13,712 nt of DNA from an uncultured Magnetococcales bacterium. Its GTDB lineage: Bacteria > Pseudomonadota > Magnetococcia > Magnetococcales > Magnetaquicoccaceae. Shown here in pieces: positions 6,487-9,886 of the stretch (the first letter of the stretch is position 1; the number at the start of each line of letters is the position of its first letter). A model generated the notes under the pieces. That model had not been told where the DNA came from, ran no database searches, and worked only from the letters and a program-made list of their open reading frames with translations. Position numbers and translations under genes: made by a program. The DNA lies in contig CAIWLA010000459.1 of NCBI GenBank assembly GCA_903913345.1, positions 1-13,712 of the forward strand, read 5' to 3'.

Positions 6487-6741
6487 ATGACAATCACCAC
6501 CCTGTCCAGTCGCCAGTTCAACCAGGATGCCAGCAAGGCCAAGAAAGCGGCGATGGCTGGACCGGTGTTCATCACGGATCGTGGCCGACCGGCGCATGTA
6601 CTACTGACGTTCGACGCATACAAGAAGATCACCGGTGATCGTACCAGGATCGCCGATCTGCTGGCGATGCCTGGCATCGAAGAGATTGAATGGAAGATCC
6701 CGCCGTTGCGCGATTTGGCACAACCGGCCGATTTATTTTGA
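6487..6741 (+). CDS. Phd/YefM-type antitoxin
   Basis: 84 aa, in the normal size range. The N-terminal half (SSRQFNQDASKAKKAAMAGPVFITDRGRPAHVLL, about residues 7-40) is the Phd/YefM DNA-binding fold, in which dimers bind the operon's own operator. The C-terminal tail EWKIPPLRDLAQPADLF is the toxin-binding segment seen in antitoxins paired with FitB/VapC-type PIN toxins. GGAGGT lies six bases upstream of the ATG. Its TGA shares one base with the ATG of the next gene (TGATG), so the two are translationally coupled. Autorepression is expected from the family, but no clear operator palindrome was identified in the 214-bp upstream gap. The antitoxin looks intact, whereas its partner is chimeric. 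Confidence 0.9.
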   Translation: MTITTLSSRQFNQDASKAKKAAMAGPVFITDRGRPAHVLLTFDAYKKITGDRTRIADLLAMPGIEEIEWKIPPLRDLAQPADLF

Positions 6742-7190
6742 TGTACCTGCTCGACACCCATATCGTGTCCGAGTTGCGAAAAATCCGTTCTGGTCAAGCG
6801 GATCGTCACGTTGCGAAGTGGGCTGACGGGGTAGAAACCGCTGATTTATACCTGTCCGTGATCACCATCCAGGAGTTGGAAATCGGCGTCTTGTTGATCG
6901 AACGTCGGGACCCATCTCAGTGGCTGAATATCAAGGAGCTTGCCGAGAAACTTCTTAAACCAATCAACAGGGTTGTCGGCGTCAAGTATTATACGGCGCG
7001 TGTTTCTGGTCGTATCGACCCGACAGCACCAGCACGACAACAGCTTTATCTCGATGCGCTTCATACGGTGTCAGAAATCACCGTACATATGGGATCCGTC
7101 CTATTATCACAAAAATTTGCTGGCTTGGTTAACCAAAAAATTCTGAATAATGCAAGCTGTTGGTATGTGATGGATTTTTTGTTTTCGTAA
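6741..7190 (+). pseudogene. Chimeric PIN (VapC/FitB) - NYN toxin ORF, probably broken
   Basis: 149 aa. Residues 1-60 are a normal PIN-toxin start: MYLLDTHIVSELRK with catalytic D5, then ADLYLSVITIQELEIGVLLIERRDP with acidic E45. The usual PIN continuation, including the conserved acid of the RDALIAATA region and the C-terminal aspartate, is absent. From W61 the frame reads WLNIKELAEKLL, then VKYYTARVSGR (81-91) and APARQQLYLDAL (96-107), which resemble the middle of NYN-domain proteins. The last ~25 residues match neither family and are AT-rich. PIN and NYN belong to the same nuclease superfamily, so this may be an in-frame recombination between distant relatives, but the third and fourth catalytic acids of either family seem lost. 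Probably inactive as an RNase; a functional hybrid is possible. The start is fixed by the TGATG overlap with the antitoxin gene. Confidence 0.75.
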
Positions 7191-7404
7191 AACTGTTCAC
7201 GGTACCGCGTGATGTAGCTGTTGACTTGGGTTTGACTCCCGTCTCGTCGGCAATGGCTCTTACGGAAGGTTCTCTGACATTCTCTGTTACTGTTTGTCAA
7301 ATTCAAGGGTGCCACTCATCCTGCCTTGCATGCGCCCTCCTCCTGTCCAAGGACTCGCTTCACGGTGGCTGGCCAGACTTCCTGGGTGGAATACACTGCT
7401 GGAG

Positions 7405-8340
7405 TCACGATGGATCCGCCAGCACGCTATCCAGGGTTGGGGCATCCAGGATTCGGAGACTCCACTCCTCCAGCGCGGCTGGTTTGGCCTGAGCGATCTT
7501 TTCCTTGGCCCATTTAGGCAGGTCACCGAATCGGCGTTGCAGTAGATTCGTCAACATCTCCGCCTTGCCTTTCTGCTCACCGATTTGCTCACCTTCCTGA
7601 CGGCCTTCCTGACGGCCTTTCTCCTTGCCTTCCATCCGTCCTTGTTCGGCCGCCCCCCGCGCATCCGCGATGGCGATACCGGCCTTGTCGTACATTTCCA
7701 ACTCCTCAGCCGTCATGTTGGCCACCATGGCCATCTCAAAGGCGTGGCGGAATGGGGCCGCACTCAGTTTCTCAGGCACATTTTGCAGGGATCCGGCACA
7801 CTTGATGAAGTAGATCCATTTGTCGAGCACATCATCCAGATCCTCCAACGGCTTCGTGAACTTGGGAAGCTCAACGAAGAAGAGCAGGATTTCCTGCAGG
7901 TAAGACTGCCCTGTAATGGTCTCCCGTGACTCGTGTCGTGAGACGCAGTGGTCAAAGCCATCGAACAGGACAAAATCGGTAATGGTAATGGCTATCACTT
8001 GGTTCAGCCTGGGATAGTCCTCGCCCCGCTCTATCTGGTGCGCATATGCCTTGGCGGCGTTGTACTGGATCCGCTTCAAGAAGGCGGCCACCTTCTGAAC
8101 TTGCATCTCTACGATGTAGGAAACCCCACGATGGTCCCGGCACTTGACGTCCAGGATGGAATATTTTAGCTCCCGGATTTTGGGGGCCAGGAAGGGGTCG
8201 AGGATGGTCAACTCGGCGATGCGCCGATCACCCTTCAGTCCCAGGAGACTTTCCAAGAAACTGACGAGGACGTCTTTGGCACTCTCGCTGCCGAAGATCT
8301 TCTTGAACGCGAAGTCGATGCGTGGATCGATGAATTTCAT
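7405..8340 (-). CDS. Rpn-family PD-(D/E)XK nuclease/putative transposase
   Basis: 311 aa. MKFIDPRIDFAFKKIFGSE is the standard start of Rpn / PDDEXK_2 family proteins. The nuclease core has D64 in SILDVKCRD and E78-x-Q80 in YIVEMQV, the D...ExQ variant of the PD-(D/E)XK motif. The C-terminal region (about 235-262) is a charged repeat of KGRQEG/GEQ units, coded in part by a 12-bp tandem duplication (7592-7615), and is followed by a tail (LLQRRFGDLPKW...) typical of the family. Rpn proteins promote RecA-independent recombination, and recent work implicates some in phage defence. The start at 8340 was preferred over an upstream ATG because the family start is unmistakable, GGGGAA lies just upstream, and the extension runs into the terminal repeat of the neighbouring element. 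It lies in the accessory block between the toxin remnant and that element. Confidence 0.93.
   Translation of the reverse strand: MKFIDPRIDFAFKKIFGSESAKDVLVSFLESLLGLKGDRRIAELTILDPFLAPKIRELKYSILDVKCRDHRGVSYIVEMQVQKVAAFLKRIQYNAAKAYAHQIERGEDYPRLNQVIAITITDFVLFDGFDHCVSRHESRETITGQSYLQEILLFFVELPKFTKPLEDLDDVLDKWIYFIKCAGSLQNVPEKLSAAPFRHAFEMAMVANMTAEELEMYDKAGIAIADARGAAEQGRMEGKEKGRQEGRQEGEQIGEQKGKAEMLTNLLQRRFGDLPKWAKEKIAQAKPAALEEWSLRILDAPTLDSVLADPS
7592..7615. repeat. 12-bp tandem duplication inside the Rpn gene
   Basis: CCTTCCTGACGG occurs twice head-to-tail on the plus strand (7592-7603 and 7604-7615). On the coding strand it encodes part of the repeated RQEG units. Such in-frame repeats in Rpn genes can expand or contract without breaking the frame. 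Confidence 0.8.
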
Positions 8341-8438: not shown

Positions 8439-8496
8439 CTATTATGGTCCCCAATTTTCAGACAGTGTGATAAGCTCTGAACCATCTACCAATCAG
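8439..8496 (+). repeat. Left terminal inverted repeat, 58 bp
   Basis: Begins CTATTATGGTCCCC and ends CATCTACCAATCAG. It is identical over all 58 bases to the reverse complement of 9726-9783. Perfect identity over this length points to recent transposition or to selection on both ends. Confidence 0.95.
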
Positions 8497-8502
8497 TGAG
8501 AG

Positions 8503-8587
8503 TAAGCACACTTTTCGATGGCAAACAGCCCATTACTGAGCACGTTATATGATGGGTGCCATGATTCCCCATCAAAAAGCGTGATCA
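8503..8587. repeat. Left-end subterminal repeats L1-L3
   Basis: Three related 20-mers: L1 TAAGCACACTTTTCGATGGC (8503-8522, +), L2 TGAGCACGTTATATGATGGG (8537-8556, +) and L3 TGATCACGCTTTTTGATGGG (8568-8587, on the minus strand). The consensus with the right-end copies is about T(G/A)AGCACGCTATTTGATGGG. Multiple short subterminal sites inside both ends are typical of transposons whose transposase or accessory protein binds cooperatively (Tn7-like and Mu-like elements). The zinc-ribbon/HTH protein is the obvious candidate binder, by inference. Confidence 0.7.
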
Positions 8588-8666
8588 AAGGTTTTCTTTG
8601 GCAAACCAAAAAGTTGGTGTCATAGTGGAGGTCTTGAACTGTCGGACATCCACAAGGAGGACAACA

Positions 8667-9245
8667 ATGCCAGCCAATCCCATCAAAGATCCCGCCTTCT
8701 TTTCTCTGTTGCTCAAAATCGATAGAGCCACCGCAGACGAGCTGCGCCAAAAGGGGTGCCCAGAGTGTGGCGGCCCGCTCCATTGGGCAAACTACGCACG
8801 ATCCCCACGTGGACTCCCCACGGGGTGTGGTACGGAACACTCGACCCGCTTGAGCCTCTGTTGTGGACGAGAGGGATGTCGCAAACGCCTTACCCCGCCA
8901 TCTGTGCGCTTCCTCGGCCAAAAGGTTTATGTCGGCGCAGCAGTGGTTCTGTATTCGGCTATGTGTCACGGGATCACGCTGACCCGTATTGACCAATTGC
9001 ACCATCTGTTCGGTGTGGGCCGCCAAACCCTGGTCAGTTGGCGCAAGTGGTGGCTGAACGACTTCGTCAGTAGCCGATTCTGGAAGTGGGGAAAAGGCAG
9101 GCTATCTTCCCCTCCCGATACGACAAATATGCCAGTCTCCCTCCTGGAGCGATTTGCCGGAACGCTATCGGAGCGGATTGTACAACTGCTGCGATTTCTT
9201 GCACCCATGACCGGCACACCAGCACCAAGTAGTCACGCATTTTGA
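8667..9245 (+). CDS. Zinc-ribbon plus helix-turn-helix DNA-binding protein of the mobile element
   Basis: 192 aa. The start at 8667 has a strong AAGGAGG ribosome binding site; a longer frame from 8598 lacks one. Residues 31-71 form a probable zinc ribbon: CPECGG (C31, C34) then CCGREGCRKR (C65/C66, C71). Next comes LTPPSVRFLGQKVYVGAAVVL. Residues about 103-129 (ITLTRIDQLHHLFGVGRQTLVSWRKWW) read as a helix-turn-helix, followed by a Trp-rich stretch and LLERFAGTLSERIVQLLRFLAP. I recall similar proteins in insertion-sequence contexts in other proteobacteria, where they are usually called hypothetical, but cannot verify this here. There is no catalytic DDE triad. Likely role: sequence-specific binding of the element's subterminal repeats and recruitment of a recombinase. 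It is the only recognisable gene between the 58-bp inverted repeats. Confidence 0.8.
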   Translation: MPANPIKDPAFFSLLLKIDRATADELRQKGCPECGGPLHWANYARSPRGLPTGCGTEHSTRLSLCCGREGCRKRLTPPSVRFLGQKVYVGAAVVLYSAMCHGITLTRIDQLHHLFGVGRQTLVSWRKWWLNDFVSSRFWKWGKGRLSSPPDTTNMPVSLLERFAGTLSERIVQLLRFLAPMTGTPAPSSHAF

Positions 9246-9653
9246 TGGAGGTATTGGCCACGCAGAAGATGATCACCAGCCACCCAGTCCGGCAGACTGC
9301 TCGCTCTTTTGCTCGGAAAACACGCCCAGTGGACCGGTAAACGCACAAGCGACAGATGCATATTCCGCCATCCCTCACCAGACTGCGGGATGGGGGGTGG
9401 TAGTGTTGCGCCGTTTGCACCTGGTTCAACGCGGCTACCAGCGAGACGCCGGGATAGAACCCTCGCCTGCGGGCAGTGAGCTACGACTAAAAACGAACCC
9501 GGATGGATACAGACGGAAGATCTTGTTCCACCATCCTTATTGGCGCGTCATGGATAGCGACGCCAGATGTGACAGGGACTGAGTGCGTGGCGTCCAATGG
9601 GCTTTCATCTCTCCCCCCTGGGGGGGGCGTGTGGTTCATTTTGCCTGCGGAGA
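9246..9653. other. Non-coding or decayed interior of the mobile element
   Basis: About 400 bp between the zinc-ribbon gene and the right-end repeats. Short frames exist on both strands (for example 9397-9582 +) but none has a good ribosome binding site or a recognisable domain. Visible structure: a 7-bp hairpin CCATCCC (9368-9374) / GGGATGG (9387-9393), and a C6-T-G8 tract at 9613-9627. It could be the remnant of a lost transposase gene or hold a small RNA; neither is shown. Confidence 0.5.
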
Positions 9654-9697
9654 CCCATCAAATATCTTGCTCATATGTCCCTCAAATAGCGTGCTTA
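9654..9697. repeat. Right-end subterminal repeats R1 and R2
   Basis: On the minus strand: R1 TAAGCACGCTATTTGAGGGA (9678-9697) and R2 TGAGCAAGATATTTGATGGG (9654-9673), 24 bp apart and pointing inward from the right end. They match the left-end copies L1-L3. A shorter partial copy (TGAGCAACATTGAGCG) lies between R1 and the terminal repeat. Confidence 0.7.
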
Positions 9698-9725
9698 CGC
9701 TCAATGTTGCTCATATCCACTCCTT

Positions 9726-9783
9726 CTGATTGGTAGATGGTTCAGAGCTTATCACACTGTCTGAAAATTGGGGACCATAATAG
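9726..9783 (-). repeat. Right terminal inverted repeat, 58 bp
   Basis: Exact reverse complement of 8439-8496. The outer TA (9781-9782) mirrors TA at 8440-8441 and is the only candidate target duplication I can see. Confidence 0.95.
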
Positions 9784-9886
9784 GCATCAAACGCGTGCAT
9801 TGCGCTTTTCCTCCTGCTGTTTCATCCATCCCCCCAGCATCCGCCTGGGTTCATCACCAACCCCATTTTTTCCAGATGCCCGGTCA

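Follow-up and report, generated by a model that had tools for sequence, protein, structure and literature searches.

A perfect 58-bp inverted repeat in a Magnetococcales genome as a probable composite remnant of a Tn6049-type transposon and an IS3-family insertion sequence

According to excerpts of the papers that describe it, Tn6049 is a 3.5-kb element present in 12 copies in Cupriavidus metallidurans CH34, where it encodes the gspA ATPase (PMC2864759), and its copy on plasmid pHS87a has 12-bp imperfect ends and 4-bp repeats (PMC4739549). The gene order ORF1, DDE transposase and ATPase is annotated as Tn6049 on both pMOL28 and pHS87a, and in the excerpted text of PMC6210171 a module of this type 'could not be categorized'.

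The stretch of DNA analysed here, referred to as the window, is a contig of 13,712 bp from an uncultured Magnetococcales bacterium whose assembly is a draft MAG of 729 contigs (96.85% complete, 5.17% contaminated). The window contains two 58-mers, 8439-8496 and 9726-9783, each the exact reverse complement of the other, with a single intact ORF between them. A sequence-only reading had noticed the pair and the ORF, both correctly, and had taken the 58-mers as the termini of the transposon to which the ORF belongs. That assignment fails, because each 58-mer is a left end from an unrelated IS3-family element and the ORF is part of a Tn6049-type element that has its own ends just inside them. What resembled a mini-transposon most likely consists of debris from two ordinary mobile elements. 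The features are as follows.

8440-8496, + strand: first IS3-family left end (IRL, not IRR), 57 bp, truncated at the left terminus of the Tn6049-type element
8497-9703, + strand: ORF1-only Tn6049-type derivative, 1207 bp, assigned by end motifs, ORF1 homology and the lack of a DDE, ATPase or ORF4 match
8497-8521, + strand: Tn6049-type left end, TGAGAGTAAGCAC...TTCGATGG, by motif match
8667-9245, + strand: ORF1, putative zinc ribbon and HTH, intact, 192 aa
9246-9678, no strand: spacer at the expected place of the DDE, ATPase and ORF4 genes, with no recognisable remnant beyond about 9272
9679-9703, - strand: Tn6049-type right end, TGAGCGTAAGCAC...TTTGAGGG, by motif match
9704-9782, - strand: second, inverted IS3-family left end (IRL, leader and orfA start), ending exactly at the right terminus of the Tn6049-type element
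9704-9714, - strand: start of the IS orfA, ATG AGC AAC AT, read directly and matching ATGAGCAATAT of locus L097
9783-9800, - strand: right flank, the opening 6 codons of a small gene that the IS end interrupts, by comparison with G000:C480

The outer layer is formed by the two arms. A 22-base part of the 58-mer, searched with up to 3 mismatches, matches in 9 of 150 genomes (the bacterium's own included), and several of the hits represent the left end of a single IS. A complete copy of 1409 bp is found in G009 and G016, both of the window's family (L104/L105), with an orfA-like and an orfB-like ORF, the latter scoring 289.5 bits against an IS3-family model (cut-off 160). The left end of this IS (IRL) starts TATAATGGACCCC, while its right end (IRR), TGAAGTGGACCC, is clearly different, and a 3-bp duplication flanks both of the complete copies tested (ACC and CCC). 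Since the 57-bp arm scores 43-76 against nine IRLs of related copies and 18-35 against seven IRRs, both arms of the window are left ends. The left arm is 92% identical to the IS of G009 and G016 over 8439-8487 and the right arm 85% identical over 9704-9784, where it covers the IS leader, enters orfA and breaks off after its first codons. The homology starts at 8440, not 8439, so the common C at 8439 looks accidental, and the TA proposed earlier as the target duplication belongs to the conserved IS end TATAATGG. Of the marks of an IS3-family member, the window has the IRL and leader; the IRR and orfB are absent, orfA is reduced to 11 nt, and there is no 3-bp duplication at 8440/9782. The bacterium's own genome yielded no second copy of the IS, nor a complete one, at E<=0.001.

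In L097 (2708-2803), a 98-bp imperfect palindrome lies between orfB and the right end of the IS3-family element, and related palindromes are matched in other genomes. L098:1440-1525 (G014:C65) is a solitary IRL-like end with no remainder of the IS.

The inner layer has a pair of ends that the sequence-only reading missed, with the motif TGAGMRTRAGCAC at 8497 (+) and 9703 (-). This motif has two matches in the window and none in 200 dinucleotide-preserving shuffles. IS sequence and motif adjoin directly at both junctions: the left arm runs to 8496 and the motif starts at 8497, and on the right the motif starts at 9703, next to the last IS base at 9704. Because the end motifs stand exactly where the IS stops, the inner element is 8497-9703. 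Members of the Tn6049 type start with TG(A/T)G(C/A)RTRAGCA followed by GATGG-type repeats, and both ends in the window, which read TGAGMGTAAGCAC, have the terminal motif TGWGMRTRAGCA and the GATGG-type inner repeat. Among ten loci compared at both ends, five (L006, L010, L053, L157 and L033) have duplications of 4-6 bp and five have none; L047, whose left end is without the TGAG terminus, is uncertain in this comparison. The 4-6 bp duplication is absent at 8497/9703. Direct duplications of 3-10 bp were sought at this boundary, at the IS boundary and at the 58-mer boundary 8439/9783, and all three are without one. A Tn6049-type copy in Paraburkholderia phymatum has a duplicated end (L009:3843-3954 and 7257-7368), the duplicate being a 112-bp perfect inverted copy of the left end placed outside the right end.

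The 215-aa frame containing ORF1 matches no Pfam or NCBIfam model at E<=1. Homologues number 474 at E<=1e-3 among 666 candidates (120 of the 474 are listed in the homologue table), their alignment has 24 invariant columns, cysteines included, and the ORF1 model has weak matches to zinc-ribbon structures. One homologue, P0001, is 84% identical. ORF1 occurs in two of 100 genomes searched, the bacterium's own and G014 of the window's family, and Tn6049-type modules are found in MAGs labelled with many phyla. The neighbourhood survey covers the best 80 of 274 confirmed genome loci and, as ORF1 was the bait, is biased towards derivatives that keep it. In 58 of these 80 loci ORF1 is followed by a DDE transposase and an AAA ATPase, which bears out the earlier expectation that larger copies with a transposase exist. 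A further 15 have the DDE gene with no ATPase detected (10 of them with less than 3 kb of sequence left), four have too little sequence, and L053, L078 and L088 are without DDE. The script counted L013 as DDE-bearing, though its best DDE match is on the opposite strand. The DDE protein has an rve match, and in the Magnetococcales relative L005 it has a similarity to IS481 that lies below the cut-off (102 bits against 224).

None of the DDE, ATPase and ORF4 sequences has a tblastn match in the window loci L001-L004, in agreement with the reported absence of a recombinase, and the window element is for this reason a derivative rather than a full Tn6049-type member. The best six-frame tblastn match of the spacer has an E of 0.022, and a 47-bp match to L032/L005 at about 9226-9272 is 79% identical (E 0.016). 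A search of the own assembly, run with no positive control, found no DDE gene of the Tn6049 kind. ORF1 would presumably assist the DDE transposase as a DNA-binding partner, and in the window that transposase is missing. Elsewhere, in L156:4510-7511 (-) (G150:C38), a divergent four-gene module adjoins a full Tn6049-type gene set. It has a zinc-ribbon-like ORF of 177 aa, a DDE protein at about 30%, an ATPase at about 27-30% and an ORF4 at 44%, and may represent a sister subfamily of the Tn6049 type.

Outside the arms the flanks differ immediately. On the right, 9783-9853 (71 bp) is 93% identical to G000:C480, where the small ORF continues; this gene is presumably HicB-like. The left flank is the upstream region of an Rpn/PD-(D/E)XK gene and resembles one paralogue up to about 8413. 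Since the arm homology ends at the IS terminus and the sequences beyond it differ, the flanks appear to represent two separate IS insertion sites. Comparison of the junction downstream of pheT in relatives, proposed as a way to define the duplication, gave no empty site: in four of six other genomes of the genus, similarity starts about 100 bp past the junction, near the end of pheT. The Rpn/PD-(D/E)XK nuclease-type gene itself lies at 7405-8340 (-) (Pfam PF12784), and its 5' part is matched at five other places in the same genome (83-91%). At 6487-7190 (+), a Phd/YefM antitoxin gene (above the Pfam cut-off) is followed by a gene for a PIN-like protein (below it), likely a toxin-antitoxin pair.

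The locus can be explained, with good confidence, as a composite remnant of two known kinds of element, produced by a Tn6049-type insertion in orfA of an IS3-family IS, an adjacent deletion and gene loss. A Tn6049-type transposon with ORF1, an IS481-like DDE gene, an AAA ATPase gene and a small ORF4 would have inserted in codon 4 of orfA, with another copy of the same IS nearby in the opposite orientation. A deletion starting exactly at the left terminus of the transposon, like an adjacent deletion made by a transposase, may then have taken out the remainder of the first IS together with the intervening DNA, leaving the transposon joined directly to 57 bp from the start of the second IS. Loss of the DDE, ATPase and ORF4 genes would have occurred at some stage as well. 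By this reconstructed course of events, two identical left ends would have been left facing each other, forming the perfect 58-bp inverted repeat. The composite origin is favoured because the arms are of the IRL type, the IS match gives way to the transposon motif between 9704 and 9703, the right-flank gene is cut by the IS end and continuous in a further copy within the genome, ORF1 is commonly followed by DDE and ATPase genes, similar end motifs flank named Tn6049-type elements, and neither layer has a duplication. Its two partners are not visible today, as the draft assembly yielded no other IS copy and no DDE gene of this kind. The intactness of ORF1, which a dead remnant need not retain, counts against this origin, and no intermediate stage turned up among the relatives. 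The remnant is probably immobile.

A non-autonomous transposon with 58-bp terminal repeats, as originally proposed, is rejected: one IS's left end is present twice, there is no duplication, and where several copies were expected, the DNA search of the own assembly gave only this one with its two arms. What stands of that proposal is mobile DNA without a transposase of its own; the 58-mers as two ends of one transposon do not. A related possibility is that the unit from IRL to IRL (8440-9782) moved whole, cut by an IS3-family transposase acting in trans. The arms are identical and the outer homology stops precisely at each IS terminus, as such a unit would have it, yet two left ends are not known to be a normal substrate, the 3-bp duplication seen in both complete IS copies is absent, and the unit is single in the assembly, which makes this quite unlikely. 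Copying of the IS end by fold-back or template switch, in place of a second IS copy, would also give arms identical over 58 bp; it would be expected to copy flanking sequence too, whereas the flanks outside the IS termini differ at once, and it is very unlikely. An assembly or binning artefact joining two loci at a repeated IS end, as a chimeric contig, is highly improbable. Although the MAG has many contigs and several contigs of G010 break at this IS3-family IS, the repeat is only 57-79 bp long and lies inside an otherwise continuous 13.7-kb contig, and a repeat-induced misjoin leaves the precise IS/transposon junctions unexplained.

The remaining alternative concerns the inner element, which has both ends intact and might be a genuine non-autonomous element moved by a full-length relative, with the IS ends as an accidental target. 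ORF1-only loci are three of the 76 informative genome loci, and two keep both ends: L053 of Paraburkholderia tagetis, and L088, which is 1326 bp long and has no duplication. L078 has the left end only, and a plasmid copy, L008, lacks both a DDE match and clear ends. L053 has perfect ends and a duplication, and its genome (G150) also contains a full-length module, L157, flanked by a 6-bp duplication. Derivatives of this kind may be movable in trans. L053 is single-copy in its genome, and internal deletion after insertion explains it equally well; the window has neither a duplication nor a DDE partner found in its assembly. Such an origin for the window element is unlikely. There is likewise a small chance that ORF1-only derivatives are a real non-autonomous class, in which ORF1 would be kept for action in cis or for repressing or recruiting a full-length relative in trans, and that the window copy is a member inside an IS.

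The composite explanation removes a false lead, that of a new transposon with 58-bp ends, and provides a worked case in which inverted copies of one IS end can mimic a perfect-ended element. It also ties an unannotated, putative zinc-ribbon/HTH family, whose window copy matches no Pfam or NCBIfam model, to Tn6049-type transposons. The four-gene module left uncategorized in the excerpted text of PMC6210171 now has a common end motif and duplications in half of the loci compared.

Each of the known systems shares some of its features with the window. The window arms are the left end of the IS of G009 and G016, and the window is without its orfB, right end and 3-bp duplication. Tn6049 has an ORF1 homologue 40% identical over residues 6-161 and a related end motif, TGTGCRTRAGCA, and its left end is just upstream of ORF1, as in the window; its ends begin with TGTG where those of the window have TGAG, and the window lacks its DDE, ATPase and ORF4 genes and its target duplication. 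L007 (plasmid pBPHYT01 of Paraburkholderia phytofirmans PsJN) and L157 of P. tagetis have in common with the window the ends TGAGCGTGAGCAC...TCGATGGG and the same second motif further in, particularly at the right end, but they have all four genes while the window has ORF1 only. The composition of L053 (988 bp) is that of the window, both ends and ORF1 only; it differs in its 5-bp duplication (ACCTC), its perfect 26-bp ends and its location, which is not within an IS.
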